Of a stretch of 45,619 bases of DNA, positions 14,905 to 28,391 are shown in pieces. The notes below the pieces were generated by a model. The model had not been told where the DNA came from, did not search any database, and saw only the letters and a program-made list of their open reading frames with translations. The position numbers were made by a program, and so were the translations under genes. Source of the DNA: Maricaulis sp. (GTDB lineage Bacteria; Pseudomonadota; Alphaproteobacteria; Caulobacterales; Maricaulaceae); the NCBI GenBank assembly GCA_029251785.1, contig JAQXCQ010000042.1:1-45619 (forward strand), in the 5' to 3' direction. Every line of letters starts with the position of its first letter. The stretch's first letter is position 1.

Positions 14905-16692
14905 CTATCCGGATGCGACGCGTTCCTTGAGTCTGGCGCCGATCTTTCCCATCACATCTCCCCAATTGGCGAAACCTTCGCCCCAGAAAAGTTGGGAATT
15001 GGGGTACCAAAGCAGCTTGTCGCTATTGAAATTGGTCCAATGTCGGCGATTTGCGCTGATGACCCAAATTTCACCGCCGCAAGCGCCTGCCAAATTGAGT
15101 GATGCATTCATCGGTCCAATGGTCAAATCCAGCGCGACACCCATCGCGGCGACTCCGTCGAGATCATCTCTCAAGTCCAGATTTTGGGGTGTGTAAATGT
15201 CGATGCCAAACTTTTCCCGGACATAGGCCATATCCTCTTCGGTTTCACCGTACTGCATGTTGATGAAGTGAGCCCCCTTGGTATCGAGAATGGATTTCCA
15301 GCTGTCGAGCGGCGAGAAATAGCGTTGCCGCTGGGCGTTCATGCGCAGCGACTTCCATAACATGCCGACTTTGGGGCCGGGGCCCAGCGCGTCGAGCTCG
15401 GCCCGGAATTCTGCGACGCGCGCGGCGTCTGGGGTGAGGAAGGACGGGGTGGTCGGGAAGCTCTCCACCGTCGGCCGTAAAGCGCCAAGCTGGTCGCCCA
15501 TCGGGGTCCAAAAATCAGCGTCTTCATCGAGGGTCGGCGCGGCTCGGACATTGCGGCCTTCGATGACCGCTGAAACATGATGATCCACTTTGGCATTCGG
15601 GAAAGAACGCTCGATCAGGGGGATCAAGCGCTTCTCGCAGGCAATGCGCAATTCGCCGTCCGAACCGATGGCCTCGGCAAATTCGTGGGCTGAATTCAGG
15701 AACAAGATTTCATCCCCCAGGCCTTGCTCGCCGACGACCACGACTTTCTTGCCCCGAATATCGTTCAGATCCAGGCTCTCCCAGCGAGGGGCCTTCATTG
15801 TGAAAAGTGTGGCCTGGGTGTGATCCGGGTCGAGTCGAATTTGTTGAGCCCGCCAGCCTTCTTCAAGTCGCCCGGTTTCCAGCAGGGCCAGAGATCGACC
15901 GTGCTTCATGGTGGCGCGATCGGTGGCGTCCTGGGGGTTTTTGAGCGCTTCATCGAAATGCGCGACGGCTTTTACCGGTTCACCGGTTAATTCATAAACA
16001 TTGGCCAGATTATTGTGAGCGCGCGAGAAGTCCGGCTTGATACGTAATGCTTCTAAATAGAAGGGGGTCGCGCCAACCGGATCGCCACTGTCCGCCAGTA
16101 CGGTTCCGAGCGAGTTCCAGAGTTCAACGACTTCAGGCCGTTTGAAAATTTCCAGGCGCAAAATTTCGATCGCGTCTTCAAAGCGTGCCTGATCGCGCAA
16201 GACACTTGCCAGATTGATGATACCGTCGAGGTTTTCCGGCTGGACTTGGTGGCAGAGCCGGTAAAACTTTTCCGCGGCCTCCAACATGTCCAGCTTCCAG
16301 GCAACAATGCCCATGTTGAGATAAATTTCGGCATCGCTGGGATCGGCCTTCCAGGCGCGTTCGTAAAATTCCAGCGCTTTGGACAGGCGCCCGAGCCGAA
16401 AGAGCAACAAGCCGACCGCGTGGTTGGGCATGGCGGCATCGGGTGCCAGATCGAGGGCCTTTAGCGCGTACTTGGCCCCGCCCTGGTGGTCGCCGCCATT
16501 GGACAGTTTCAACGCACGTTTCACAAATCCAAGCGCCTTGCGCATTGAGGCGCGTTCTTCCTTGGGAATGGATGCCAGCTTTATATCGACGGCCATGGAA
16601 TCGGAAACGGATGAGGCGCCGCGGGCGTGGTTTTTTTCGGTTTCCGCCTCGGCGGAGAATTCCTCGATGAGCGCTGTATTGGCTGTCGACAT
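14905..16692 (-). CDS. flmG: flagellin glycosyltransferase FlmG (TPR plus GT domain)
   Basis: A 595-residue protein, close to the size of Caulobacter FlmG. Residues about 45-270 are tandem TPRs (for example AMPNHAVGLLLFRLGRLSKA, DAEIYLNMGIVAWKLDMLEA, FSRAHNNLANVYELTGEPVKA). From about 300 on there is a GT-B type glycosyltransferase domain (VVVVGEQGLGDEILFLNSA; VGMLWKSLRM; DLTIGPMNASLNLAGACGG). In Caulobacter, FlmG binds flagellins through its TPRs and attaches pseudaminic acid in the cytoplasm before export. The setting fits: divergent from flbT-flaF, beside five flagellins, with Pse genes 7 kb away. The start is an ATG with AGGGAC upstream. Other TPR-glycosyltransferases exist, but none with this neighbourhood and size. 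Confidence 0.85.
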   Translation of the reverse strand: MSTANTALIEEFSAEAETEKNHARGASSVSDSMAVDIKLASIPKEERASMRKALGFVKRALKLSNGGDHQGGAKYALKALDLAPDAAMPNHAVGLLLFRLGRLSKALEFYERAWKADPSDAEIYLNMGIVAWKLDMLEAAEKFYRLCHQVQPENLDGIINLASVLRDQARFEDAIEILRLEIFKRPEVVELWNSLGTVLADSGDPVGATPFYLEALRIKPDFSRAHNNLANVYELTGEPVKAVAHFDEALKNPQDATDRATMKHGRSLALLETGRLEEGWRAQQIRLDPDHTQATLFTMKAPRWESLDLNDIRGKKVVVVGEQGLGDEILFLNSAHEFAEAIGSDGELRIACEKRLIPLIERSFPNAKVDHHVSAVIEGRNVRAAPTLDEDADFWTPMGDQLGALRPTVESFPTTPSFLTPDAARVAEFRAELDALGPGPKVGMLWKSLRMNAQRQRYFSPLDSWKSILDTKGAHFINMQYGETEEDMAYVREKFGIDIYTPQNLDLRDDLDGVAAMGVALDLTIGPMNASLNLAGACGGEIWVISANRRHWTNFNSDKLLWYPNSQLFWGEGFANWGDVMGKIGARLKERVASG

Positions 16693-16881: not shown

Positions 16882-17268
16882 ATGCCGTTGAAAATCTCAC
16901 TCAAAGCTGGAGAGAGATTCGTGCTCAACGGAGCTGTTGTGGAAAATGGTGATCGCCGTGCGACCCTCGTGCTCCAGAACCGGGCTTCGGTTTTGCGTGA
17001 AAAGGACATTCTTCAATCTGAAGATGTGACCTCGCCCGCGCGCCACATCTATTTTCCGATCATGATGATGTATCTGTCATCCAAGGATGACTCCAATCTC
17101 TATGACGAGTTTGTTTTGCGTATGAACGAGTTCATGAGCGCTGTGGCGGATCCGGAGGCGTTGGCGAATTGCGTCTCGATCAGCCGGGATGTCATGTCGG
17201 GCGAGTATTACAAGGCGCTCATTCGATGCAAAAAGCTCATTTCCTTTGAGAAGGGGCGTCTCGGGTAA
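16882..17268 (+). CDS. flbT: flagellin mRNA regulator FlbT
   Basis: A 128-residue protein with full-length FlbT features: [44 protein letters not shown] at the N-terminus and [12 protein letters not shown] near residues 54-65. In Caulobacter, FlbT binds the 5' untranslated region of flagellin mRNA and destabilises it until the hook is finished. GGAG seven bases upstream supports the start. The stop overlaps the flaF start by one base (TAATG), so the pair is coupled. The five flagellin leaders downstream each carry a hairpin that could be its target. Confidence 0.95.
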
Positions 17269-17630
17269 TGTCACTTCATGCGTATCAGGCAGCGTCAACG
17301 CGGGATGAAGACCCGCGTTCCACGGAGTATCGTCTATTTGCTCAGGTGACGCGAGCGCTCATGCGGGCCTCTGAGGCGGCTGATGATGATCTTGCGGCGC
17401 GTATTGATGTACTCGATTGGAATCGGCGCGTCTGGACCAATCTGGCCGCGGACTGTGCCAGTAAGGACAATCAACTGCCCGAGCAGGTCAGGGCTTCGAT
17501 CATCTCCTTGTCGATCTTTATTTCCAAGCACACATCTTTGGTCATGCGAGGCAAGGACAGCTTCGACGTGTTGATTGATATCAACCGGACGATCATGCAA
17601 GGGCTCGCGCCACAAGCGGCAGCCAGCTAA
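17268..17630 (+). CDS. flaF: flagellar biosynthesis regulator FlaF
   Basis: A 120-residue helical protein with the FlaF pattern: N-terminal [27 protein letters not shown], central [15 protein letters not shown] and C-terminal [33 protein letters not shown]. FlaF acts opposite to FlbT: it is needed for flagellin accumulation and secretion, probably as a flagellin-binding partner. It is translationally coupled to flbT and followed after 223 bases by the first flagellin gene. Confidence 0.95.
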
Positions 17631-17647: not shown

Positions 17648-17662
17648 CGGCAAGAATTGCCC
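17648..17662. promoter_or_regulatory. FlbD/ftr-like palindrome upstream of flagellin 1
   Basis: CGGCA-AGAAT-TGCCC, one base off the perfect CGGCA-N5-TGCCG palindrome. It is about 115 bases upstream of the flagellin 1 sigma-54 promoter. Similar elements recur before other flagellar units here. Caulobacter ftr (FlbD-binding) elements have this kind of sequence; that identity is inferred. Confidence 0.5.
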
Positions 17663-17762: not shown

Positions 17763-17779
17763 TCGGCATGCCAATTGCG
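17763..17779 (+). promoter_or_regulatory. sigma-54 promoter of flagellin 1
   Basis: GG at 17765-17766, ten bases, GC at 17777-17778, in the context TCGGCATGCCAATTGCG, close to TGGCACG-N4-TTGC. The expected transcription start is near 17790, about 64 bases before the ATG and immediately before the leader hairpin. Confidence 0.75.
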
Positions 17780-17790
17780 CGGGTCACGGT

Positions 17791-17805
17791 GGGACAAAAC
17801 GTCCT
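17791..17805 (+). promoter_or_regulatory. flagellin 1 leader hairpin (candidate FlbT element)
   Basis: GGGAC-AAAAC-GTCCT: a 5-bp stem (including one G-U pair) and an AAAAC loop at the predicted 5' end of the mRNA, 48 bases before the start codon. Equivalent hairpins occur in all five flagellin leaders. Confidence 0.6.
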
Positions 17806-17853
17806 CGGCCGGAGAATACCGGTTCATTTACTTCCAGAATGGAGGACTAACCA

Positions 17854-18681
17854 ATGACGCTTTCTGTCAACACCAACGCTGGGGCCATGATTGCCCTGCA
17901 GAACCTAAATACGACGAATATGGATATGAGTGAGGTTCAAAAACGTATCAGTACCGGCTTGAATGTCGCCGGCGCAAAGGATGATGGCGGTCGTTATGCC
18001 ATCGCCCAGCGCATGCGTGCGCAAGTCGCAGGATACGGTGTCGTACAACAAAGCCTCAATGGGGTCCGTTCCATTGTAGATGTCGCCTTGGCGGCAGGTG
18101 AAGGTGTTTCGGACCTTATCATTGAAATGAAGGAGAAGGCACTGGCCGCATCGGATGGCTCGCTGGATTCTGCATCGCGAACCGCTTTGAATGAAGATTT
18201 CAAGGCTTTGCGTGATCAGATCAGCAAAATGGTCTCCAATGCGTCGTTCAACGGGACAAATTTGATCAATAACACGCAGACGTCGGTATCTGCCCTGGCG
18301 AACCAGGACGGATCCAGCACGATCTCGATTGTAGATGAAAACCTGAATCTCGGTGGTGCAATCGTCACCCTCGCGGCTACGGCATCATTTGAATCGGCAG
18401 GTGCTGCGACGACGCTTGCGGGTACATTGTCAACGTCTCTGAACAATCTCAACAGTGCCTTGGCGCGACTGGGTACTGCCAGCAAGTCTCTCGAAATCCA
18501 CAAGGGTTTCGTGACCAAGCTGGCGGATGCCCTGGAGCAGGGAATAGGAAATCTGGTCGACGCGGACCTGGCGAAGGAGAGTGCAAGACTCCAGTCTATG
18601 CAAGTTAAGCAGCAGCTGGGCGTTCAGGCGCTTTCGATTGCCAATCAGAACCCGCAGACCATCCTGTCCTTCTTCCAGTAA
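17854..18681 (+). CDS. flagellin 1
   Basis: A 275-residue flagellin of the short alphaproteobacterial type with D0/D1 helices and only a small central domain. The N-terminus reads MTLSVNTNAGAMIALQNLNTTN and the C-terminal block QSMQVKQQLGVQALSIANQNPQTILSFFQ is the conserved D0 helix. It starts with MTLSV like flagellin 5, unlike the MATIN of flagellins 2-4, and is clearly diverged from that trio. GGAGG eight bases before the ATG is the strongest ribosome site among the five. It has its own sigma-54 promoter and a strong terminator. Exported through the flagellar type III system; probable FlmG substrate. Confidence 0.97.
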   Translation: MTLSVNTNAGAMIALQNLNTTNMDMSEVQKRISTGLNVAGAKDDGGRYAIAQRMRAQVAGYGVVQQSLNGVRSIVDVALAAGEGVSDLIIEMKEKALAASDGSLDSASRTALNEDFKALRDQISKMVSNASFNGTNLINNTQTSVSALANQDGSSTISIVDENLNLGGAIVTLAATASFESAGAATTLAGTLSTSLNNLNSALARLGTASKSLEIHKGFVTKLADALEQGIGNLVDADLAKESARLQSMQVKQQLGVQALSIANQNPQTILSFFQ

Positions 18682-18690
18682 GTTCGTTGA

Positions 18691-18724
18691 TCGGGGTTGC
18701 CATCTAGGCAACCCCGATTTTTTT
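18691..18724 (+). terminator. terminator of flagellin 1
   Basis: An 11-bp perfect stem, TCGGGGTTGCC (18691-18701) and GGCAACCCCGA (18707-18717), with a 5-base loop and a seven-T run. A textbook Rho-independent terminator nine bases after the stop. Confidence 0.95.
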
Positions 18725-18768
18725 CTGCTCCGTTGATGGGGGCGGATAGGTTTGCCTGCAATCCGCAA

Positions 18769-18783
18769 TTAACTGTTTATTAA
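18769..18783. promoter_or_regulatory. CtrA-type box upstream of flagellin 2
   Basis: TTAA-CTGTTTA-TTAA, an exact TTAA-N7-TTAA match to the CtrA consensus, 170 bases upstream of the flagellin 2 sigma-54 promoter. Binding is inferred. Confidence 0.5.
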
Positions 18784-18801
18784 GCATAAATTATTGCCGA
18801 C

Positions 18802-18816
18802 CGGCACGGATTGCCG
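18802..18816. promoter_or_regulatory. FlbD/ftr-like palindrome upstream of flagellin 2
   Basis: CGGCA-CGGAT-TGCCG, a perfect palindrome with a five-base spacer. Its centre is about 140 bases upstream of the sigma-54 promoter, a distance typical for an enhancer-bound activator of the FlbD/NtrC type. Confidence 0.6.
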
Positions 18817-18938
18817 GGTGATTGTGGGGTTGGGCGGGCATCTTTTGCCGTGCTGTTTGCTTGGTGGGCAAGGATGGCTAGGCAAAAAGCGCCTTGCGAA
18901 TCAGGCGAGTTAAGAAAAATCGGCAGGTCAAGTCTTTG

Positions 18939-18955
18939 TTGGCACCGCCCTTGCA
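18939..18955 (+). promoter_or_regulatory. sigma-54 promoter of flagellin 2
   Basis: TTGGCACCGCCCTTGCA: GG at 18941-18942 and GC at 18953-18954 exactly ten bases apart, nearly the full TGGCAC-N5-TTGCA consensus. The expected start is near 18966, one base before the first leader hairpin. Confidence 0.9.
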
Positions 18956-18966
18956 GTTTGGTCAGT

Positions 18967-18998
18967 GGGTCAGAAGACCCGAGGGACAAAACGTCCCT
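18967..18998 (+). promoter_or_regulatory. flagellin 2 tandem leader hairpins
   Basis: Two adjacent hairpins at the predicted 5' end: GGGTC-AGAA-GACCC (18967-18980) and AGGGAC-AAAAC-GTCCCT (18982-18998), one base apart. The ATG follows 30 bases later. Candidate FlbT-responsive element. Confidence 0.65.
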
Positions 18999-19028
18999 GT
19001 ACATAACCAGAATGGGAAGGGCCAAGAA

Positions 19029-19853
19029 ATGGCTACTATCAACACCAATGCCGGTGCGATGATCGCACTGCAAAACCTCAATAAAACAAACATGGATATG
19101 CAGCAGGTTCAGACGCGCATCGCGACTGGCCTTTCCGTCGCGACCGCGAAGGATAATGGCGGTATCTATGCGATCGCCCAAAAAATGCGTGCGGATGTAA
19201 AGAGTTTTGAATCTGTCTCCAACTCACTGGATCTTGCCACGTCCACTGTTGACGTTGCTATCGCCGGTGGTGAGGCCATTTCCGACCTGTTGGTTGAGAT
19301 GAAAGAAAAGGCCCTGGCGGCATCTGATTCCTCTCTCGATTCGTCATCGCGTACGGCCCTTAATGAAGATTTCAAAGCGTTGCGCGACCAAATCGGCAAG
19401 ATCGTGTCAAACGCGACGTTCAACGGAACAAACCTGATCAATAACTCAGTGACATCGATCTCAGCGCTGGCGAATGCGGCTGGTTCTTCGACTATCTCGG
19501 TGATTGACGAGAACATGTCCCTTGGTGGCGCGGTTGTGACGCTTGCGGCGACGGCATCGTTTGAATCTGCGGGTGCGGCGACGACGATTGCAGGTACGAT
19601 TTCGACGTCGATTAATAATTTGTCTTCATCGCTTGCACGCCTTGGTACTGGTGCGAAGTCTTTGCAAATCCACAAGGATTTTGTTAGCAAGCTATCTGAT
19701 GCGGTTACTCGCGGCATTGGCAATCTGGTTGATGCTGATCTGGCCAAAGAGAGCGCGAAATTGCAGTCCTTGCAGGTCAAGCAACAGCTGGGTGTGCAGG
19801 CCCTGTCGATCGCCAACCAGGCTCCGAGCACGATCCTCGGCTATTTCCGATAA
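19029..19853 (+). CDS. flagellin 2
   Basis: A 274-residue flagellin, MATINTNAGAMIALQNLNKTN at the N-terminus and LQVKQQLGVQALSIANQAPSTILGYFR at the C-terminus. The true start is the ATG after AAGGGCCAAGAA; the open frame reaches back into the leader to 18894 but carries no start with a ribosome site there. It is nearly identical in protein to flagellins 3 and 4. DNA identity is patchy: 19197-19320 matches flagellin 3 almost perfectly, while 19382-19525 matches flagellin 4 instead, the pattern expected from gene conversion. Probable FlmG substrate; regulated by its own sigma-54 promoter and leader hairpins. Confidence 0.97.
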   Translation: MATINTNAGAMIALQNLNKTNMDMQQVQTRIATGLSVATAKDNGGIYAIAQKMRADVKSFESVSNSLDLATSTVDVAIAGGEAISDLLVEMKEKALAASDSSLDSSSRTALNEDFKALRDQIGKIVSNATFNGTNLINNSVTSISALANAAGSSTISVIDENMSLGGAVVTLAATASFESAGAATTIAGTISTSINNLSSSLARLGTGAKSLQIHKDFVSKLSDAVTRGIGNLVDADLAKESAKLQSLQVKQQLGVQALSIANQAPSTILGYFR

Positions 19854-19864
19854 GTTTTGAGGGG

Positions 19865-19883
19865 GCGGCGGTTTAACCGCCGC
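19865..19883 (+). terminator. terminator of flagellin 2
   Basis: GCGGCGGT and ACCGCCGC pair around TTA 11 bases after the stop, followed by TCTTCTC. The stem is strong but the T-run is poor, so partial read-through into flagellin 3 is possible. Confidence 0.7.
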
Positions 19884-19966
19884 TCTTCTCGCACGCGGAG
19901 ACGGACCTCATCCCCATCCTGGAGGGGGTGTGTCTCAAATCCACGCGAATTCTCCGGGAAATTGAA

Positions 19967-19999
19967 GCGGGTCAAAACGATCTGCGAGGCAAAACGCCT
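19967..19999 (+). promoter_or_regulatory. flagellin 3 tandem leader hairpins
   Basis: First hairpin GCGGGTC-AAAAC-GATCTGC (19967-19985, 7 bp with two G-U pairs), second AGGC-AAAAC-GCCT (19987-19999), one base apart and 30 bases before the ATG, the same layout as flagellin 2. The stems use different bases but still pair. No GG-N10-GC promoter is visible upstream, unlike the other four genes. Confidence 0.6.
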
Positions 20000-20029
20000 A
20001 TCAATGCAACTGTATGAAAGGGCCAAGAA

Positions 20030-20854
20030 ATGGCTACTATCAATACCAATGCTGGTGCGATGATTGCACTGCAAAACCTCAATAAAACAAACATGGATAT
20101 GCAGCAGGTTCAGACCCGTATCGCAACGGGCCTTTCTGTTGCTTCTGCCAAGGATAATGGTGGTATTTACGCTGTCGCTCAGAAAATGCGCGCCGACGTA
20201 AAGAGTTTTGAATCTGTCTCCAATTCACTGGATCTTGCCACGTCCACTGTTGACGTTGCTATCGCCGGTGGTGAGGCCATTTCCGACCTGTTGGTTGAGA
20301 TGAAAGAAAAGGCCCTGGCGGCCTCGGATTCTTCATTGGACGCGTCATCGCGTACGGCCTTGAATGAAGATTTCAAAGCGCTGCGTGATCAAATTGGCAA
20401 GATCGTATCAAACGCGACCTTTAACGGCACCAATATGATCAACAACTCGGTGACATCGATTTCGGCCCTCGCGAATGCGGCCGGCTCGTCGACGATCTCC
20501 GTGATTGACGAGAATATGTCCTTAGGCGGCGGCGTCGTTACGCTCGCGGCGACAGCCTCATTTGAGTCTGCAGGCGCAGCAACAACAATCGCTGGCACGA
20601 TCTCGACATCAATCAATAATTTGTCTTCATCTCTGGCCCGTCTGGGTACCGGTGCAAAGTCCTTGCAGATCCACAAGGACTTCGTTGGCAAGCTATCGAA
20701 TGCTCTCGAGAAAGGTATCGGCAACCTCGTCGATGCGGATCTGGCCAAGGAAAGCGCGAAGCTTCAGTCCCTGCAAGTCAAGCAGCAGCTTGGCGTACAG
20801 GCATTGTCTATCGCCAATCAGGCGCCAAGCACAATTCTGGGCTATTTCCGATAG
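20030..20854 (+). CDS. flagellin 3
   Basis: A 274-residue flagellin differing from flagellin 2 at only a few residues (for example ASAKDN for ATAKDN, SNALEK for SDAVTR). It starts with the same AAGGGCCAAGAA-ATG context. The leader keeps the tandem hairpins, but I find no sigma-54 promoter in the 176 bases after flagellin 2, so it may depend on read-through or another promoter. DNA near 20198-20321 is almost identical to flagellin 2, and a 33-base tract near the 3' end matches flagellin 4. Filament subunit and probable FlmG substrate. Confidence 0.97.
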   Translation: MATINTNAGAMIALQNLNKTNMDMQQVQTRIATGLSVASAKDNGGIYAVAQKMRADVKSFESVSNSLDLATSTVDVAIAGGEAISDLLVEMKEKALAASDSSLDASSRTALNEDFKALRDQIGKIVSNATFNGTNMINNSVTSISALANAAGSSTISVIDENMSLGGGVVTLAATASFESAGAATTIAGTISTSINNLSSSLARLGTGAKSLQIHKDFVGKLSNALEKGIGNLVDADLAKESAKLQSLQVKQQLGVQALSIANQAPSTILGYFR

Positions 20855-20865
20855 TCATAGGTCAA

Positions 20866-20888
20866 GGTGGCGGGGTTTCCCTGCCACC
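20866..20888 (+). terminator. terminator-like hairpin after flagellin 3
   Basis: GGTGGCGGGG and CCCTGCCACC pair around TTTC/TTT with one G-U pair, 12 bases after the stop. No T-run follows. Confidence 0.6.
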
Positions 20889-21191
20889 GATTGGCCCGTT
20901 CGCATTGTATACAGGTCTAGTGAAGGGAGGGCTTGGCCCTCTTTTGTCGTATTGGGGAGGGGGTTCTTGGGCTTGGGGTGCGCCCATTTGATGCTCGATT
21001 GATTGTCGATCCCGTGTTTGTTCTGGGGACTGCAATGGGTGAATCGCCTTGTCTGGCAATGCGAATAAATTTCCCAGCGCGCCGATCATGATTGTTTGAT
21101 GCCAGTTCATTTTTAGACTCTTTATCATGGCATTGGAGCGGAAAGCTCCCTTGCGACGTTAAGTAAATAGAAAAGATCAATATCTGCCGAT
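20889..21191. other. long spacer between flagellins 3 and 4
   Basis: Apart from the terminator hairpin before it and the palindromes after it, I see no gene here: the ORFs are short, lack ribosome sites and match no family. It is the longest spacer in the flagellin array and could be residue from a lost flagellin copy, though no flagellin-like translation is visible. Confidence 0.4.
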
Positions 21192-21206
21192 CGGCAAAAC
21201 CTGCCG
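21192..21206. promoter_or_regulatory. FlbD/ftr-like palindrome 1 of flagellin 4
   Basis: CGGCA-AAACC-TGCCG, a perfect palindrome with a five-base spacer, about 130 bases upstream of the flagellin 4 sigma-54 promoter. Confidence 0.6.
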
Positions 21207-21224
21207 CGCTGAGAGATAAAAACT

Positions 21225-21239
21225 CGGCAATAATTGCCT
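21225..21239. promoter_or_regulatory. FlbD/ftr-like palindrome 2 of flagellin 4
   Basis: CGGCA-ATAAT-TGCCT, one mismatch, 33 bases (about three helical turns) after the first. A weaker third copy (CGGCA-AAATA-CGCCA) follows at 21269-21283, so this promoter carries an array of sites. Confidence 0.55.
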
Positions 21240-21328
21240 ATTAGTGCGCTGGCTGGGCAGTCTCAACTCGGCAAAATACGCCACCGAATCAGGCGAATCA
21301 GAAGATCCCACCCAAGTCAACCCAATCT

Positions 21329-21344
21329 GGTCTTGTTTTTGCAA
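21329..21344 (+). promoter_or_regulatory. sigma-54 promoter of flagellin 4
   Basis: TGGTCTTGTTTTTGCA: GG at 21330-21331 and GC at 21342-21343 ten bases apart. The -12 half TTGCA is perfect and the -24 half is degenerate (TGGTCT for TGGCAC). The expected start is near 21355, one base before the first leader hairpin. Confidence 0.65.
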
Positions 21345-21355
21345 GTTTTCGCTCG

Positions 21356-21386
21356 GGTCAGAAGATCCAATGGGCAAAATGCTCAA
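21356..21386 (+). promoter_or_regulatory. flagellin 4 tandem leader hairpins
   Basis: GGGTC-AGAA-GATCC (21356-21369, one G-U pair) and TGGGC-AAAAT-GCTCA (21372-21386, one G-U pair), 28 bases before the ATG. Positions that differ from flagellin 2 still pair, which supports an RNA structure. Confidence 0.62.
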
Positions 21387-21414
21387 CGAACCAAAAACTG
21401 GAAAGGGCCAAGAA

Positions 21415-22239
21415 ATGGCTACAATTAATACAAATCCCGGCGCGATGATTGCGCTTACGAATCTGAACAACACCAACAAAGAAATGCAGAATGTTCAGAC
21501 TCGCATCGCGACTGGCCTGGCTGTCTCTTCAGCTAAGGACAATGGTGGTATTTACGCGGTTGCTCAGAAAATGCGCGCTGACGTGAAAAGCTTCGAATCC
21601 GTATCCAATTCACTGGATCTGGCGACTTCTACCGTTGATGTGGCGATTGCCGGTGGCGAAGCCATCTCCGATCTGCTGGTCGAGATGAAGGAAAAGGCTC
21701 TGGCCGGTTCCGACGCAAGTCTTGATACTGCTTCCCGCACAGCACTGAACGAAGATTTCAAGGCTCTGCGCGACCAAATTGGCAAGATCGTGTCAAACGC
21801 GACGTTCAACGGAACAAACCTGATCAATAACTCAGTGACATCGATTTCAGCGCTGGCGAATGCGGCTGGTTCTTCGACTATCTCCGTGATTGACGAGAAC
21901 ATGTCCCTTGGCGGTGGTGTTGTGACGCTGGCTGCGACGGCTTCATTTGAATCCGCCGGTGCTGCGACCACAATTGCTGGTACGATTTCAACATCGATCA
22001 ACAATCTGTCTTCGTCGCTCGCCCGTCTGGGTACTGGCGCGAAGTCCATGCAGATCCACAAGGATTTTGTCGGCAAGCTGTCGAATGCTCTTGATAAGGG
22101 TATTGGCAATTTGGTCGATGCAGACCTTGCGAAGGAAAGTGCGAAACTTCAATCCCTGCAGGTCAAGCAACAGCTTGGCGTACAGGCATTGTCTATCGCC
22201 AATAGTGCTCCAAGCACAATCTTGGGCTACTTCCGTTAA
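21415..22239 (+). CDS. flagellin 4
   Basis: A 274-residue flagellin with MATINTNPGAMIALTNLNNTNKEMQ at the N-terminus, slightly more diverged than flagellins 2 and 3 in the first 40 residues and identical over most of the rest. The start is the ATG in the shared AAGGGCCAAGAA-ATG context; the frame continues open upstream to 21244 through the leader but this is not coding. 21768-21911 matches flagellin 2 at all but three silent positions, while neighbouring stretches differ at many silent sites. It carries its own promoter, leader hairpins and a strong hairpin after the stop. Confidence 0.97.
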   Translation: MATINTNPGAMIALTNLNNTNKEMQNVQTRIATGLAVSSAKDNGGIYAVAQKMRADVKSFESVSNSLDLATSTVDVAIAGGEAISDLLVEMKEKALAGSDASLDTASRTALNEDFKALRDQIGKIVSNATFNGTNLINNSVTSISALANAAGSSTISVIDENMSLGGGVVTLAATASFESAGAATTIAGTISTSINNLSSSLARLGTGAKSMQIHKDFVGKLSNALDKGIGNLVDADLAKESAKLQSLQVKQQLGVQALSIANSAPSTILGYFR

Positions 22240-22248
22240 GTACGGTTC

Positions 22249-22275
22249 GAGTGGCGGGATCTATTCCCGCCACTC
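22249..22275 (+). terminator. terminator hairpin of flagellin 4
   Basis: A perfect 11-bp stem, GAGTGGCGGGA (22249-22259) with TCCCGCCACTC (22265-22275), and a five-base loop, ten bases after the stop. No T-run follows, so it may protect the 3' end rather than terminate fully. Confidence 0.75.
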
Positions 22276-22339
22276 ACCCCGTAACTGACGACGGGATCTT
22301 TATGGAGGCGCTGGCGCCTCTTTGTCAGCGAATGAAAAA

Positions 22340-22747
22340 ATGGCAGAAACTGGTTTTAATCCCACGCCCGTCACCGGGATACCTCCCGTTGTTAAACGGG
22401 AAGCGAGTGTCGACAAGCCTCGCGAGGACGATCAACGCGTCCCGCCTGTTCTCAAGCAAGATGCGCCGAATAGGACGCAAAATCGCATTGACGAACAAAA
22501 GAGGGGCCAATCGGAAAAGCAACATTCCGTGGAGGTTCGTGCTGACGAGATTGATGAACTCGCTAAATCGGCTTTGAAAAATTCACGGTTGAGTATCACT
22601 CGCGAGGGTGAAAGCGGTGATTTTATCTATTTGATGGTGGACCAGGATACGGGTGAGACGGTGCGCCGATGGCCGCCGGAGAAGCATTCCGACCTAGTAG
22701 ACTATTTGCGTTCCAAGCGTGCCGGCCTGATCGACAAGACCGTCTGA
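22340..22747 (+). CDS. flaG: FlaG-family protein
   Basis: About 135 residues with a disordered, charged N-terminal half and a FlaG-like C-terminal domain: LSITREGESGDFIYLMVDQDTGETVRRWPPEKHSDLVDYL, matching the family pattern of a beta hairpin followed by TGE.(I/V)R.(I/W)PPE. FlaG proteins affect filament length; the mechanism is unclear. Position between flagellins 4 and 5 fits. ATG at 22340 is chosen; a TTG at 22322 is in frame and the only GGAGG nearby (22304-22308) lies in a small hairpin, so the start is uncertain. No separate promoter is obvious. Confidence 0.8.
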   Translation: MAETGFNPTPVTGIPPVVKREASVDKPREDDQRVPPVLKQDAPNRTQNRIDEQKRGQSEKQHSVEVRADEIDELAKSALKNSRLSITREGESGDFIYLMVDQDTGETVRRWPPEKHSDLVDYLRSKRAGLIDKTV

Positions 22748-22844
22748 TCAACCCGGCAATTTCGACCGGCTGAGCAGCAACGCTCGGCAAACACCGTCCA
22801 ATTCCCCGTGTTGGAATTGAGACGAAGATCGCTACTTCATTGAA

Positions 22845-22859
22845 TTAACTGTAAATTTT
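22845..22859. promoter_or_regulatory. imperfect CtrA-type box upstream of flagellin 5
   Basis: TTAA-CTGTAAA-TTTT: one good half and one weak half with the right spacing, about 27 bases before the sigma-54 promoter. The string TTAACTGTAAAT also occurs at 33631 before the beta-propeller gene and, nearly, at 18769. Confidence 0.35.
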
Positions 22860-22871
22860 GAGATGGCATGA

Positions 22872-22888
22872 CCGGCACGGCATTTGCG
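22872..22888 (+). promoter_or_regulatory. sigma-54 promoter of flagellin 5
   Basis: CCGGCACGGCATTTGCG: GG at 22874-22875 and GC at 22886-22887 ten bases apart; GGCACG and TTTGC match both halves of the consensus. The expected start is near 22899, just before the leader hairpin. Confidence 0.85.
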
Positions 22889-22902
22889 CTACCTGTGGGG
22901 AG

Positions 22903-22918
22903 CGTCGCAAAAGCGGCG
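22903..22918 (+). promoter_or_regulatory. flagellin 5 leader hairpin
   Basis: CGTCGC-AAAA-GCGGCG, a 6-bp stem with one G-U pair and an AAAA loop, 27 bases before the ATG. The stem sequence is unrelated to the others, but loop and position are the same. Confidence 0.55.
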
Positions 22919-22945: not shown

Positions 22946-23782
22946 ATGACCTTAAGTGTCCACACGAATACATCCGCGATGATTGCGCTGCAAAACCTCA
23001 ACAAGACCAGTGAGGATATGCAAATCGCGCAGAACCGGATTTCGACCGGTTTGAAAATTGCCGGTTCCAAGGACAATGCAGCGATTTATGCCGTAGCGCA
23101 GAATATGCGCGGCGATGTCAGTGCGCTGGGCGCCGTCAATCAAAGCCTCGATCGCGCCGCCACGATGGGCGATGTTGCGATGGCCGCAGGTGAGGCTATT
23201 TCCGATCTGCTGGTTCAGATGCGCGAGAAGGCGACAGCGGCGATGGACGCGTCCATCGATAATTTTTCCCGTGCGGCCTATGACGCCGACTTTAAGTCAT
23301 TATTGGCTCAGGTTCAGGTGATTTTGGCGAATGCTGAGTTTGACGGTGCGAACCTGCTCAATGGCTCGGTCACCGGAGGGATTGCATTCCTTGCTGACGC
23401 GGATGCTGCCCGCACAGTGACGCTCAAGACCCAGGATATGAGTATATCTGGATCGATCATCACGTTGACATCGACGGCGAGTTTAGGGTCTGTGATGCTC
23501 GCGACAAATGTTGTGGCTGATGTGAAGGCCAGTCTGGACAATGTGAACCAAGCGCTCGCGAATATGGGGTCAGACGTCAAGAAGCTCGAGGCGCACAGTG
23601 GTTTTGTGACCAAGCTTATGGATTCATTGCAGGAAGGTATTGGTAATTTGGTCGATGCGGACCTTGCCAAGGAAAGTGCGTCATTGCAGGCCTTGCAGGT
23701 CAAGCAGCAATTGGGTGTTCAGGCGCTGTCGATCGCGAACTCGCAGCCTAATATTATTCTGAGCCTGTTCCAGGGCGGTTAG
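22946..23782 (+). CDS. flagellin 5 (divergent)
   Basis: A 278-residue flagellin, the most diverged of the five: MTLSVHTNTSAMIALQNLNKTSEDMQ at the start, a different central region (VTGGIAFLADADAARTVTL) and a C-terminus ending SLFQGG rather than GYFR. The upstream in-frame ATG at 22868 lies inside the sigma-54 promoter, so translation must start at 22946. D0 helices at both ends are intact, so it should be exported and polymerise. Divergence suggests a specialised place in the filament, such as hook-proximal, as for the minor Caulobacter flagellins; that is inference. Confidence 0.95.
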   Translation: MTLSVHTNTSAMIALQNLNKTSEDMQIAQNRISTGLKIAGSKDNAAIYAVAQNMRGDVSALGAVNQSLDRAATMGDVAMAAGEAISDLLVQMREKATAAMDASIDNFSRAAYDADFKSLLAQVQVILANAEFDGANLLNGSVTGGIAFLADADAARTVTLKTQDMSISGSIITLTSTASLGSVMLATNVVADVKASLDNVNQALANMGSDVKKLEAHSGFVTKLMDSLQEGIGNLVDADLAKESASLQALQVKQQLGVQALSIANSQPNIILSLFQGG

Positions 23783-23905: not shown

Positions 23906-25066
23906 ATGGCTGCTGATTTTTTGCCCTATGGGCGTCAATTCATTGATGAGAGCGATATCGAGGCCGTGGTCGAAGTGCTTCGTGGAGACTGGTTGACCAC
24001 AGGTCCAGCTGTCGCCGCCTTCGAGCACGACTTTGCTGCGATGACCGGGGCTCAGCATGCGATTGCCTGTTCGAACGGAACCACTGCGCTGCATCTGGCG
24101 CTGGCCGGCCTTGGCGTCGGTGAGGGCGATGTCTGCATCGTGCCTGCGATCACGTTCATGGCGACCTCCAATGCTGCGATCTATTGCGGTGCTGACGTGG
24201 TGTTTTCGGATGTCGATCCCGATACAGGATTGATGACGCCAGATAATTTACGCGCCGCTTTGATCAAGTCGGGTGGACGGGCGAAGGTTGTCCTCCCCGT
24301 GCATTTGTCAGGGCAATGTGAGGATATTGCTGCACTGGCTGCCATTAGCGGCGATGCAGGGGCGGTGATGGTCGAAGATGCCTGCCATGCACTCGGTACG
24401 AAATGGCGGGGTGCGCCCGTCGGCGCATGTGCTCATTCCGCTGCGTCCTGTTTTTCCTTTCATCCGGTCAAGACGATTGCCGCCGGTGAGGGCGGGATGG
24501 TGACGACGAATGACCCCGCGCTCGCCGATCGTCTGCGGGCATTGCGCAGCCACGGCATCGTCCGCGGCGAGGATTTGCTCGAGCAAAATGCGGATCAGCC
24601 ATGGTGGCACGAGATGCAATCGCTGGGATGGAATTATCGCCTGTCAGATATACAGGCTGCGCTGGCGCGGTCTCAGCTATCAAAGCTGGATGCATTCGGA
24701 GCCAAACGCCGGTCCTTGGCGGCGACCTATGACAGGCTTTTGGATGACCATGCGACGATCCGCCCCCTCGTCCGAACGCCGGATTGTGATCCCTGCCTGC
24801 ATCTATACGCCGTGCGGATAGATTTTGCGGCGCTGGGCACAGACAGGACTCGCGTAATGAACGCTTTGCGCGAACGTGGCATCGGCACTCAGGTGCACTA
24901 CATTCCGGTGCCGTCACAGCCCTGGTATCGGGCCAAATATGGTGACCAGACGCCACCGGGTGCGGCAAAATATTACGAACGAACACTGAGCCTGCCGCTA
25001 TTTGCGGGAATGAGCGATGATGATCCCGCGCGCGTGATTGAAGCGCTTGAGGCGGTGCTGGGCTAG
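23906..25066 (+). CDS. pseC: PseC aminotransferase of pseudaminic acid synthesis
   Basis: A 386-residue PLP-dependent enzyme of the DegT/DnrJ/EryC1 family. It aminates the 4-keto sugar made by PseB to UDP-4-amino-4,6-dideoxy-L-AltNAc. The PLP Lys is K189 in SFHPVKTIAAGEGG; the cofactor-binding EDACHALGT is at 157-165 and SNGTTALHLAL at 56-66. The N-terminal LPYGRQFIDESDIEAV is typical of PseC. The only Pse gene here besides pseF on the plus strand, it converges on the Pse-associated methylase, the two sharing the palindrome CTAG (25063-25066) as stop codons. Caulobacter calls this gene flmB. Confidence 0.93.
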   Translation: MAADFLPYGRQFIDESDIEAVVEVLRGDWLTTGPAVAAFEHDFAAMTGAQHAIACSNGTTALHLALAGLGVGEGDVCIVPAITFMATSNAAIYCGADVVFSDVDPDTGLMTPDNLRAALIKSGGRAKVVLPVHLSGQCEDIAALAAISGDAGAVMVEDACHALGTKWRGAPVGACAHSAASCFSFHPVKTIAAGEGGMVTTNDPALADRLRALRSHGIVRGEDLLEQNADQPWWHEMQSLGWNYRLSDIQAALARSQLSKLDAFGAKRRSLAATYDRLLDDHATIRPLVRTPDCDPCLHLYAVRIDFAALGTDRTRVMNALRERGIGTQVHYIPVPSQPWYRAKYGDQTPPGAAKYYERTLSLPLFAGMSDDDPARVIEALEAVLG

Positions 25067-25695
25067 GAGCCCTTCTTACGGAACAGGGCCCAGGTGACAT
25101 CATCGATGCCACTGGTGCGGCTCCACAAGAATCCGTCATCTACGATCTCAAGATCGTCAAAGCGGTCCATAAAGAAGCCACCGAAATCGCGTTTGAATAA
25201 CAAGTCGTCACGGCCGCGATAGGGGATGGTTTCCGGTTTGGCCGAGAAGTATTCTGCAACCAACAACCAGCGGGATGTCACACGGTGCATCTCATCGGCG
25301 ACGCTTGGTAGATCGTCCGGGTGAACATGAATCAGCACGCCGGCTGAAAAGCTCATCTCGACCGCGCCGTCAGAGACGGGAATATCCTGACCTGTGGCGT
25401 TGAACAAATTCTCCGCTGGCAGGATATCCTCCGACAGCAGGGTCACACGCGCCTTGTCATTGGGCTCGACTGCGAACGGTTCGGCACCGATGAGACGGTC
25501 GATGGCGCGCAGGTTCAGACCGATATTGCAGCCCACTTCGAGGAAGCTTTTGGGCGGGTTGTTGAATGTGCTCTTGAGCATCGCTGCCCACATGCGTGTG
25601 CGCATGCGCAATACGTCGGCGAGCGGCGCGTTACGGTCGACATATTCATTGCCGAAATCGCCTCGCCAGGCATCGAGTTGAGCGGTCTTGGTCAT
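25063..25695 (-). CDS. pseudaminic acid biosynthesis-associated methylase
   Basis: A 210-residue class I SAM methyltransferase. The SAM motif is FLEVGCNIGLNLRAI (residues 51-65), followed by FAVEPNDKA, and MSFSAGVLIHVHPDDL forms the post-motif region typical of Pse-locus methylases. It probably methylates the nonulosonic acid or an attached group. The start ATG overlaps the pseI stop by four bases and has GGAG seven bases upstream; the open frame that continues into pseI is not used. Last gene of the minus-strand Pse operon. Confidence 0.85.
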   Translation of the reverse strand: MTKTAQLDAWRGDFGNEYVDRNAPLADVLRMRTRMWAAMLKSTFNNPPKSFLEVGCNIGLNLRAIDRLIGAEPFAVEPNDKARVTLLSEDILPAENLFNATGQDIPVSDGAVEMSFSAGVLIHVHPDDLPSVADEMHRVTSRWLLVAEYFSAKPETIPYRGRDDLLFKRDFGGFFMDRFDDLEIVDDGFLWSRTSGIDDVTWALFRKKGS

Positions 25696-26774
25696 GATGT
25701 TTCTCCTATTGTCCGCCAGTCCACCATATCCATGGCAAGCGGATCTCCGCGTTTCAGCGCGCGCGCGGCGGGCCGATCGAGAATATCGTAATAATGTTTG
25801 GGCGGCAGTCCGTGTCCGGGCCGAATGGAGCGAACATTGTCTGCGGTGAAGGGCTCTCCCGCGGCGACATCTTTCACCACGTAGAGCGAGCGCCGGAAGG
25901 TGATCGAGCCGCGCTCGCATCCAGCCAAATCGTAGCGCACATTGCCGATCGCCGCCTGGGCATTGTGGCAATCTTCGACCAGGCGCTTGAATTCATCAGG
26001 CTCCAGCGAGAAGTCGCCGTCCGGGCCACCGTCATCGCGTGACAGGGTGAAATGCTTCTCGATGACGCGAGCGCCCAGAGCGACAGCCGCGACAGCGCAG
26101 GCCGTGCCGGGCGTGTGATCACTGAGGCCGGGGACGGTGTTAAAGGCGGTCGCCAGGTGCGGGACGGTCAGCAGATCGGCCTGGTCGATCGGGGCAGGAT
26201 AGGAGGACAGGCAGTGCAAGACCGCCATGCCGCCAACGCCGTTCTCCCGCGCGGTTCGGACCGCCTCGTGGATTTCCGCCAGATTGGCCATGCCGGTCGA
26301 CATGATCATCGGCTTTCCGGTTTTGGCGACGCGCGCGATCAGCGGCAGATCAGTGATCTCAAAGGAGGCAATCTTGTAGGCCGGGGCATCGAGGGATTCC
26401 AGTAGATCCACGGCGCTATGATCAAACGGTGTTGAGAATAGCGGGATGCCGAGCGACTTTGCCTTGGCGAAAAGCTCGGCATGCCATTCAAACGGTGTCT
26501 GGGCCTCGGCGTATAATTCGTGCAGCGAGCGTCCATCCCATAGTCCGCCTTCGATGACAAAGCCTGGGCCGTCATGGTCGATCGTGATGGTGTCGGCGGT
26601 ATAGGTCTGGATCTTGATGGCGTCGGCCCCGCACTGGGCCGCGACCTCCATGGTTTCCAACGCGCGGTCAATCTTGCCGAGATGATTGGCCGACAGTTCT
26701 GCGATCACAAACGGCTTGTGATCGGCACCGATTTTACGTCCGGCAATTTCGAATGTCGGTGTCTCAGCGGGCAT
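25692..26774 (-). CDS. pseI: pseudaminic acid synthase PseI (NeuB family)
   Basis: A 360-residue enzyme that condenses the free 6-deoxy sugar with phosphoenolpyruvate to make pseudaminic acid. The TIM-barrel NeuB domain begins at PFVIAELSANHLGKIDRA (residues 21-38) and contains ADAIKIQTY, GIPLFSTPFD, YKIASFEITD, PMIMSTGMA and GLSDHTPG. A C-terminal SAF (antifreeze-like) domain has RRSLYVVKDVAAGEPFTADNVRSIRPGHGL. SANHLG and the lack of neuraminate-specific features favour Pse over sialic acid, as do the neighbours. It overlaps the WbqC-like gene by 11 bases and the methylase by four. Confidence 0.95.
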   Translation of the reverse strand: MPAETPTFEIAGRKIGADHKPFVIAELSANHLGKIDRALETMEVAAQCGADAIKIQTYTADTITIDHDGPGFVIEGGLWDGRSLHELYAEAQTPFEWHAELFAKAKSLGIPLFSTPFDHSAVDLLESLDAPAYKIASFEITDLPLIARVAKTGKPMIMSTGMANLAEIHEAVRTARENGVGGMAVLHCLSSYPAPIDQADLLTVPHLATAFNTVPGLSDHTPGTACAVAAVALGARVIEKHFTLSRDDGGPDGDFSLEPDEFKRLVEDCHNAQAAIGNVRYDLAGCERGSITFRRSLYVVKDVAAGEPFTADNVRSIRPGHGLPPKHYYDILDRPAARALKRGDPLAMDMVDWRTIGETS

Positions 26775-27519
26775 GATCGTCCTCGGTCAATTCGGCGGTC
26801 GGGATAGACGGGCGTCTTCCGGCGCGGACAGTGGTCAGTGAGTCGGCCAATCCGCAAAAAGCCAGCAGGTCGACAATGCCCAGGTGCGAGAGGAATTCAC
26901 CGCTATCCTGGTCGTAGTTCGGGTGCTCATAGGTCTGGAATTTCAATGTCAGGCCGGCATCGGCGAAGCGCTGCTCGGCATTGTCCTCACGCAAATAATC
27001 GAGTGCGCCAAGGGGAGAGAGGTAGGTGTCGGCCCCGGCATCACTGCACAAGGCGATGAGCCGGCCGGTGCGATCCGTGTGACGGGCGAAATCGGATGCG
27101 GTGTGGAGATCAGTCGAAATTCCGATTTCATCACAGATGGTGGTGATGGCGTTCTGCGTGATAGCTCCCAGCTTGTCTTCGGAATTTTCCAATACCTTTT
27201 GCCAGAGATCGCTGGCCGCAGCGCCATGGGGGGCACGGGCATAGGCCTGCTGGATCGTGCGGCCATGTTTTTTTCGCCAGGGCTGATGGTCATTGACCTG
27301 AACGGTATTCAGCGCCTGGTCGAGTTCGCCGGAATGGCGGACGGGAATGGACAGCATGAGTTCCTTGCCATCGGAGCCGCGTATCTTGTTGCGGGTCTGC
27401 CAGCTTTGACGGGCCAGCTGAACATCATCGAGGAAGATGAAAGTATCCACCTGGTCGATCAGGTCGAAATATCCCATCCAGGGCATATAGGTCGGCTGCA
27501 TCACCGCCAGGGTGGTCAT
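26764..27519 (-). CDS. WbqC-like family protein
   Basis: A 251-residue protein of the WbqC-like family, recognised by its N-terminus MTTLAVMQPTYMPWMGYFDLIDQVDTFIFLDDVQLARQSWQTRN-type block (Q.P.Y.PW.GYF; F.D.V) and TYLSPLGALDYL further on. These genes occur in polysaccharide and nonulosonate loci, often next to amino-sugar genes, but no reaction is established to my knowledge. The ATG overlapping the upstream methyltransferase stop (ATGA) is chosen over one nine codons earlier. Inside the operon between a methyltransferase and pseI, so a role in decorating the Pse precursor is likely. Confidence 0.8.
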   Translation of the reverse strand: MTTLAVMQPTYMPWMGYFDLIDQVDTFIFLDDVQLARQSWQTRNKIRGSDGKELMLSIPVRHSGELDQALNTVQVNDHQPWRKKHGRTIQQAYARAPHGAAASDLWQKVLENSEDKLGAITQNAITTICDEIGISTDLHTASDFARHTDRTGRLIALCSDAGADTYLSPLGALDYLREDNAEQRFADAGLTLKFQTYEHPNYDQDSGEFLSHLGIVDLLAFCGLADSLTTVRAGRRPSIPTAELTEDDHAR

Positions 27520-28391
27520 CGTGCGCGGCCGGCCATTAACAGGCATCGGCCCATGCCAGTATTTGCCAGAGCGCGATAAAGTTGACGGCGCGTTTCTGCA
27601 GGCAAGCTGGTTTCGAAGGCGACGCGCTTGTCGTGGGCGGGTTTGCCCAAGGATGGATCTGCGATGAAGTCATCCCCCATCAAGGCGATCATTTCCATCG
27701 GGAAGTCGGATTGTTTGTAGATCGGCTCGAACCCGGAAGCTTCAAGCAGGCGTTCGACACTGTCGAAGGTGAAATAGTGCTGGTGATCACCCGTGACCCA
27801 GAAATCGCCGTGTCCCTTGTCGTCTGAGAGAACGGTCTGAAGCGGGTTGAAATCATTGCCGGAGCGGATCAGCACGATGCCGCCAGGCGCGAGCAAGTTG
27901 CGCGCGTACTGCAGCATGGCTTGCGGATCGGCGGCGTGAGAGAGCACGTGCATGAAAAGGATGGCATCGAGCGGTTCGTCGACACTGAGCGTTTCGAAGG
28001 CTCCCTCACTGACCGTATGGCCCTTGGCACGAGCGACAGACGCCGCGGCGGGGGCCAGCTCGGCACCACCGGCATCAAAGCCGAGATCCTTCAATTCCGT
28101 CAGCAAGTCGCCTGTGCCGCAACCTGCGTCAAGAATACGCTTTCCCGGGGCAAATTCCGATAGCGTCCAGGCTATGTCTGCGTAGAGGGTTTTCGACATC
28201 CAGTCGCGCTGGGCGTCGGCGGCCTCGCCGCCGTCCATTGAGCGTTTGATGTCGACGCCTTTGTCGCCGCTATCGACGTCGGCGTAATAGGTGTCGCGGA
28301 AATAGTCGTGCACTTGCTCGGCGGTGGAGGAGGCGGCGAGGCGGCGTGATCCGTAGCGCGGATCGAGTTCAGTGTCCGGCCGGGCCGCCAT
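27516..28391 (-). CDS. SAM-dependent methyltransferase (class I)
   Basis: A 291-residue protein with a Methyltransf-23-like fold: RILDAGCGTGDLL at residues 85-97 (SAM motif I), FMHVLSHAADP (motif around 155), and LLAPGGIVLIRSGN. The N-terminal 65 residues and a C-terminal tail (RRQLYRALANTGMGRCLLMAGRA) extend beyond the core. A position within the Pse operon, four bases from the oxidoreductase gene and overlapping the WbqC-like gene by four, implies it methylates a sugar intermediate or substituent. The acceptor is unknown; it is a second methyltransferase in the same operon. Confidence 0.82.
   Translation of the reverse strand: MAARPDTELDPRYGSRRLAASSTAEQVHDYFRDTYYADVDSGDKGVDIKRSMDGGEAADAQRDWMSKTLYADIAWTLSEFAPGKRILDAGCGTGDLLTELKDLGFDAGGAELAPAAASVARAKGHTVSEGAFETLSVDEPLDAILFMHVLSHAADPQAMLQYARNLLAPGGIVLIRSGNDFNPLQTVLSDDKGHGDFWVTGDHQHYFTFDSVERLLEASGFEPIYKQSDFPMEMIALMGDDFIADPSLGKPAHDKRVAFETSLPAETRRQLYRALANTGMGRCLLMAGRAR

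Follow-up and report, generated by a model that had tools for sequence, protein, structure and literature searches.

In the window analyzed here, a 45,619-nt stretch of Maricaulis sp. DNA (contig JAQXCQ010000042.1), the messenger RNA (mRNA) leaders of four flagellin genes, F1 to F4, contain a series of tandem hairpins whose stems covary and whose A(A/G)AA loops are conserved, and this array probably serves the translational repressor FlbT as its binding platform. The genes stand in the order flbT, flaF, F1-F4, a flaG-like gene, and then a fifth flagellin, F5; pairwise identity among F1-F4 is 72-96%, and F5 is 53-54% identical to them. Of the named proteins and loci compared, those of Maricaulis are nearest to the FlbT encoded here. 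That F1-F4 share a common RNA element is strongly supported by covariation in relatives. A sequence-only reading of the window had proposed one such element, responsive to FlbT, in all five leaders; the shared element is borne out for F1-F4, and F5 is not a convincing member.

Covariation and loop sequence in related leaders

Flagellin leaders of relatives were gathered by profile search, and 348 starts were reduced to 327 leaders; duplicate leaders, those with fewer than 90-100 bases upstream or with runs of N, and proteins shorter than 200 residues were dropped. We took a census of all hairpins of at least 5 base pairs (bp) with loops of 4-5 nt, no loop being chosen beforehand. The 235 leaders of the same order held 375 such hairpins, against 154.7 (standard deviation (sd) 12.0) in 20 shuffles. 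The commonest loops were AAAAC (46, against 0.2 in the shuffles), AGAA (32), AAAAT (20), AGAAC (18), and AAAAA (13), all closed by a C-G pair.

Stem positions 1-4 were paired in 88, 76, 72, and 60% of the loop-anchored leader sites (n = 388), compared to 41-44% at the same loop anchors outside the leaders of the same loci (n = 2500), and 99 distinct 4-bp stems occurred among the 222 sites that had three or more additional pairs. To quantify covariation, 140 loop-anchored hairpins were drawn at random from 190 17-mers that had been selected by the anchor C-A(A/G)AA-N-G only, pairing not being a criterion. Their covariation was 0.562 against 0.178 (sd 0.015) after shuffling, a value reached by 0 of 500 shuffles, and slid versions of the alignment gave at most 0.175; paired cells made up 80.5% against 57.9% when shuffled. 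Leaders of the type found in the F2-F4 trio also covaried (0.294 against 0.168, sd 0.011, when shuffled; n = 40), the alignment being 40 of 57 leaders picked for two hairpins, which flatters its paired percentage.

Among 287 unique hairpins, whenever the other three of stem positions 1-4 formed Watson-Crick pairs, the fourth was G-U in 45 cases, A-C in 16, and some other mismatch in 49 (32 at position 4). The excess of G-U over A-C (P 0.0003) points to an element acting in the sense-strand RNA and argues against a DNA palindrome. The sequence-only reading had noted that the stems vary and still pair, G-U included, which the compensatory changes in relatives bear out; it had also named a lack of covariation in related genomes as the outcome that would speak against it, and strong covariation was found instead.

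Hairpin arrays in the five leaders

The transcription start (+1) was predicted by counting 12 nt on from the C in the GC element of the sigma-54 promoter. The genes, promoters, and hairpins are as follows:

16882..17268, + strand, flbT (PF07378, E 3.1e-43), putative hairpin reader
17268..17630, + strand, flaF, flagellin secretion chaperone gene (PF07309, E 4.7e-35)
17764..17778, + strand, F1 sigma-54-like promoter, predicted +1 at 17790
17791..17805, + strand, F1 hairpin 1, GGGAC-AAAAC-GTCCT
17807..17824, + strand, F1 hairpin 2, loop AGAATA
17831..17845, + strand, F1 hairpin 3, CTTCC-AGAAT-GGAGG, enclosing the Shine-Dalgarno sequence GGAGG
17854..18681, + strand, flagellin F1 (PF00669)
18940..18954, + strand, F2 sigma-54-like promoter, predicted +1 at 18966
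18967..18980, + strand, F2 hairpin 1, loop AGAA
18982..18998, + strand, F2 hairpin 2, AGGGAC-AAAAC-GTCCCT
19007..19015, + strand, F2 CC-AGAAT-GG box just 5′ of the Shine-Dalgarno sequence, 2 bp, weak, outside the predicted minimum-energy fold
19020..19034, + strand, F2 start-codon hairpin, loop AGAAA
19029..19853, + strand, flagellin F2 (PF00669)
19967..19985, + strand, F3 hairpin 1, loop AAAAC
19987..19999, + strand, F3 hairpin 2, AGGC-AAAAC-GCCT
20021..20035, + strand, F3 start-codon hairpin, loop AGAAA
20030..20854, + strand, flagellin F3 (PF00669)
21328..21342, + strand, F4 sigma-54-like promoter, predicted +1 at 21354
21355..21368, + strand, F4 hairpin 1, loop AGAA
21371..21385, + strand, F4 hairpin 2, TGGGC-AAAAT-GCTCA
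21391..21401, + strand, F4 hairpin 3, CCA-AAAAC-TGG, beside the Shine-Dalgarno site
21406..21420, + strand, F4 start-codon hairpin, loop AGAAA
21415..22239, + strand, flagellin F4 (PF00669)
22873..22887, + strand, F5 sigma-54-like promoter, predicted +1 at 22899
22903..22918, + strand, F5 hairpin, CGTCGC-AAAA-GCGGCG, doubtful member of the element
22946..23782, + strand, flagellin F5 (PF00669), probably FljJ-like

The five hairpins of the sequence-only reading are all present within one base of where it had placed them, and the extra hairpins that it saw directly 5′ of them in F2, F3, and F4 (hairpin 1 of each) are present too. It had also put the first hairpin within about 4 nt of the expected start in the four genes with a promoter, and the distances are indeed 1 nt for F1, F2, and F4 and 4 nt for F5. 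No sigma-54-like promoter was found for F3 by the pattern used, and its hairpins are kept nonetheless. To call the element doubled in the trio, however, understates the array: F1 also has it in tandem, with three hairpins, and the array reaches as far as the Shine-Dalgarno sequence in F1 and the start codon in F2-F4, where the last hairpin is GGCCA-AGAAA-TGGCT in all three genes.

When folded from the predicted +1, the F1-F4 leaders form a string of separate hairpins. Compared with shuffles, the z scores were -3.3 for F2, -3.8 for F3, and -3.1 for F4. F1 was weaker (-1.7, with 8 of 200 shuffles as good), and its case against chance lies mostly in its relatives.

Position and specificity of the element

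Of the order leaders, 109 have a sigma-54-like promoter that is followed by a hairpin. Measured from the 5′ ends predicted for these leaders, the first hairpin begins between -2 and +6 nt from +1 in 77, with a peak 1-2 nt after it (56 leaders). The gap between the first two hairpins is 0-2 nt in 30 of the 56 leaders that have at least two. A sigma-54-like promoter was not seen in 32 of 149 hairpin leaders, F3 included, which suggests that they persist where the transcript may begin at another site.

R1, a covariance model built from trio leaders, was searched at E ≤0.001 against the 3.2-Mb genome of the window and matched only the three trio leaders, on which it had partly been trained. At the same threshold it gave 50 matches in 37 of the 150 genomes of the order, many of them training sequences or near copies; the 25 of these matches that could be compared with mapped flagellins all lay directly upstream of one. 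A two-hairpin model (R2) gave 34 matches in 61 relatives at E ≤0.1, 19 of them at E ≤0.021. These 19 comprise 6 training sequences, 12 further flagellin leaders (one in genome G046), and one match on contig G051:C8; of the 15 weaker matches, 7 lie upstream of flagellins and 8 elsewhere.

Loop type in FlbT and CsrA genomes

FlbT is present in 64 and CsrA in 36 of 190 genomes of the class. Among the 116 flagellin-bearing Alphaproteobacteria, 61 have FlbT only, 33 CsrA only, and 21 neither (Fisher P 1.3e-13 for exclusion, not corrected for phylogeny); a single genome, G146, has both. Leaders were read in 55 of the 116 genomes (27 with FlbT, 20 with CsrA, and 8 with neither), from one locus each in the CsrA genomes (20 leaders) and about two in the FlbT genomes (58 leaders), with the genome of the window (G000) and G038 left out. 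Within the order, the labeling of leaders as FlbT-bearing was tested only for L208-L287, G000, G037, and G038.

Strict A-loop hairpins were found in 12 of the 27 FlbT genomes and in none of the 20 CsrA genomes. Hairpins with an A(A/G)G(A/U) loop, which we take to be the CsrA-type consensus (AGGTA, AGGAT, and AGGAA in the census), occurred in 2 of 27 and 9 of 20, respectively. With any closing pair allowed, an A-loop hairpin is present in 28 of 60 leaders from FlbT genomes outside the order, compared to 3-4% in shuffles. Hairpins of similar geometry are thus found with mostly ARAA loops beside FlbT and with AGG loops beside CsrA. In the genome of the window, whose assembly is 95% complete, there was no match to PF02599 (CsrA), and the leader loops are of the ARAA type, without the GGA of CsrA/RsmA targets. 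The open-licence literature that we searched yielded no description of the conserved hairpins or of the FlbT-CsrA exclusion.

Several CsrA-bearing Alphaproteobacteria (L114, L116, L126, and L136) have C-G-closed AGG-type hairpins upstream of their flagellins, which are likely CsrA sites. The FlbT genome G202 carries two related flagellins at locus L095, one with an AGAAC loop in its leader and the other with an AGGAT loop.

F5 and the FljJ-like class

The hairpins follow flagellin class within the order as well. A strict hairpin is present in 126 of 158 leaders of flagellins nearer to F1-F4 and in only 2 of 55 leaders of those nearer to F5, one of which belongs to F5 itself; if the closing pair is left free, the numbers become 130 of 158 and 6 of 55. 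These counts cover 213 of the 235 order leaders, the 22 with proteins of more than 330 residues being left out. A count based on an N-terminal motif had given 7 of 42 F5-like leaders, but 6 of the 7 hairpins lay in the promoter region, and leader-only counts were used. The F5 leader folds no better than shuffles (z 0.02, 103 of 200 as good). F5 was rejected as a regular member of the element on these two results, and this part of the five-leader proposal falls. Some Maricaulis F5-like leaders (L043, L049, and L037) have a hairpin near the site of that of F5, with other loops (TGAAT, AAAACT).

The FljJ of Caulobacter crescentus shares 49% identity with the other flagellins, compared to 53-54% for F5 here; it binds FlbT and co-represses the other five (PMC7591256). 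From its divergence and its position in the cluster, the F5-like class is probably FljJ. The sparing of most of this class fits a co-repressor whose own message is largely free of the element, with FlbT as the reader. In Caulobacter endophyticus (L269), two flagellins carry tandem CAAAAYG hairpins, and a third, 51% identical to them, has no strict one.

Other features of the locus

The flagellins are flanked (14905-16692 and 23906-27546) by a 595-aa TPR protein resembling FlmG and by sugar genes, including NeuB and a DegT aminotransferase. FlmG has 596 residues, with the TPR part at its N-terminus (PMC7591256). Together, the FlmG-like and sugar genes suggest a pseudaminic-type glycosylation of the flagellins. 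Palindromes of the ftr-like form GGCA-N-TGCC, possible FlbD sites, lie at 17649, 17680, 18803, 18837, 21193, and 21226, upstream of F1, F2, and F4. A sixth flagellin-like gene lies elsewhere in the genome (G000:C110:23391-23798, L006), with one stop codon within the matched stretch; no A-loop hairpin was found in the upstream stretch inspected.

Proposed mechanism

CsrA acts on flagellin leaders through upstream docking hairpins and a blocking site, and this served as our model for FlbT. We propose by analogy that FlbT would dock on the A(A/G)AA loops at the mRNA 5′ end. From there it would be passed on, or bridged, to whichever hairpin or box sits at the Shine-Dalgarno sequence or the start codon, and would block ribosomes. 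Repression might last for as long as the cell retains the FljJ-like flagellin, probably F5, as co-repressor, and its export, aided by FlaF, would release the messages. Filament synthesis would in this way be held back until the flagellar base is built. FlbT was reported to bind the 5′ untranslated regions (UTRs) of flagellin mRNAs and to repress them (PMC3930126), and FlaF is described as a flagellin secretion chaperone (PMC7591256). The choice of FlbT as the reader is suggested by the two distributions above, namely that the loop type tracks FlbT versus CsrA in the leaders read and that the FljJ-like class is mostly spared; the occlusion of ribosomes and the co-repressor role of F5 are extrapolated from sequence and the published Caulobacter work.

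A number of observations weigh against this scheme or narrow it. For Brucella, FlbT has been described as an activator, so that occlusion cannot be the full account everywhere. Within the order, 86 of 235 leaders lack a strict hairpin, and the same is true of 15 of the 27 FlbT genomes outside it. Conversely, an A-loop hairpin is present in one of the eight genomes with neither protein (G089) and, with any closing pair, in 4 of the 31 leaders from the FlbT-lacking group, and a CsrA-type loop is found in a single leader of each of two FlbT genomes, G137 and G202. The third, FljJ-like leader of C. endophyticus carries CGGCG-AGAA-CGCCG, closed by G-C, shortly before the start codon. The start-codon hairpin is nearly invariant, which places it beyond the reach of covariation. 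Finally, R2 brought up no further flagellin leaders when run on the class sample: its six matches are four flagellin leaders, all from the training set, and two sites inside other coding sequence (L300 and L301), so that the model does not extend the family past what the reading of the leaders gave. A Phaeobacter flbT mutant is reported as still motile (PMC11974857).

Alternative explanations

Terminal stems of the ompA type stabilize mRNA at the 5′ end, and the hairpin at +1 could likewise protect against RNA pyrophosphohydrolase and RNase E, giving a long-lived flagellin mRNA with no dedicated reader. The placement of the first hairpin close to the predicted +1 in most promoter-bearing leaders is what such a stabilizer would show. 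It needs no fixed loop, however, and here one loop type dominates on stems that vary widely; the hairpins also occur in the leaders without a sigma-54-like promoter, and their loop type follows the FlbT or CsrA content of the genome. We give this explanation a small chance. A similarly modest one goes to another reader of the loops, be it a FlaF-flagellin complex, Hfq through A-R-N loops, or a further factor acting together with FlbT. Indeed, flaF adjoins flbT in the window, and A-rich loops resemble sites of the Hfq distal face. Yet Hfq sites need no hairpin, and the element tracks FlbT versus CsrA, though FlaF and Hfq were not surveyed.

The ftr-like palindromes upstream of F1, F2, and F4 resemble some of the hairpins, which might then be DNA sites of a transcription factor such as FlbD. 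Such sites need conserved arms, whereas the arms here change with compensation and favor G-U over A-C; moreover, the hairpin palindromes lie 3′ of the predicted +1 and also occur in the 32 leaders that lack a recognizable promoter. The DNA-site explanation is disfavored, and we hold it to be very improbable. Even less credible are chance stems in GC-rich leaders. Taken alone, F5 folds as chance would have it, but the census excess, the stem pairing, and the covariation all contradict chance for the family, as does R1, partly trained on the trio leaders, by matching nothing else in its own genome; for F2-F4, chance is refuted by covariation together with the folding controls. FlbT as the reader of a common RNA element is the explanation that we favor.

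Possible kinship of FlbT and CsrA

The structural model of FlbT, built from a 103-sequence alignment (predicted local distance difference test (pLDDT) 92.6), has strands at residues 3-7, 12-15, 18-21, 27-31, and 37-39, followed by four helices. When the trimmed N-terminus of FlbT was compared by hhalign with 23 alphaproteobacterial CsrA sequences, 38 columns were aligned in one register with a probability of 20-27%, pairing R39 of FlbT, invariant in its alignment, with R44 of CsrA. Only 1 of 300 column shuffles scored as well, but this null loses the strand pattern and so flatters the match. Other alignments gave 13% over 17 columns (a first, smaller one) and 3.5% (a larger one).

Direct searches gave no such link. 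By Pfam, FlbT could not be placed in the CsrA family, as the FlbT of the window matches only FlbT and DUF7377, and PF02599 was not among the 25 of 32 families listed for the 103 FlbT sequences at E ≤10. No CsrA was among the matches listed by a PDB sequence search with FlbT, nor among those listed by Foldseek/VIA for the whole model and its N-terminal 51 residues. Such comparisons of a single chain are a weak test, since CsrA is a strand-swapped dimer.

FlbT likely works like CsrA, and homology between them is only hinted at. A tentative scenario, which we think doubtful, is that FlbT is a far-diverged CsrA, made of a five-strand RNA-binding domain and a helical bundle, whose loop code shifted from A-GGA to ARAA. 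FlbT, FlaF, and the FljJ-like flagellin might then have taken over from CsrA, FliW, and flagellin in one large alphaproteobacterial branch, the leaders being recoded loop by loop with the hairpin architecture kept.

Comparison with known systems

The short, covarying, and countable loop element offers a concrete RNA target for binding, structural, and reporter work on FlbT, and it would account, purely at the sequence level, for the way in which one flagellin class largely avoids control. Its closest counterparts are the FlbT-controlled Caulobacter fljK-type leaders reported by Anderson and Gober (2000) and Ardissone et al. (2020), which share the flagellin 5′ UTR setting, the linkage to flbT and flaF, and a set of several structural flagellins plus a divergent one of about 50% identity. 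The 2000 paper of Anderson and Gober reportedly considered a structure predicted for the fljK leader. Compared to these leaders, what differs here is the family-wide covarying element with its fixed loop code, its tandem layout down to the Shine-Dalgarno site or start codon, and its near absence from the FljJ-like class. An action of FlbT on flagellin mRNA was reported in 2000, and the table of a 2015 review gives no binding site and leaves the mechanism unresolved (PMC4347634).

No Rfam family matched the window at E ≤5, nor any of 13 related loci at the gathering score, and RF01736 (flg-Rhizobiales), considered as the same family, was rejected on these searches. It is alike in being cis-regulatory according to Rfam, and is described as three stem-loops (PMC3765529) from Rhizobiales (PMC2864571). 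The two weak matches to it that were seen differ in loops and layout.

On hag and flaA, CsrA and FliW act at hairpins of the leader that have short purine loops, including one at the Shine-Dalgarno site, and control is tied to flagellin export. That system differs from the one described here in its loop, GGA instead of ARAA, and in its protein, as CsrA is unmatched in the genome of the window and FlbT has no PF02599 match. An analogy between FlaF/FlbT and CsrA/FliW was already suggested in the Discussion of PMC4894983. The hairpins described here suggest that two unrelated or very distant proteins share one leader architecture, through which filament synthesis is coupled to export.

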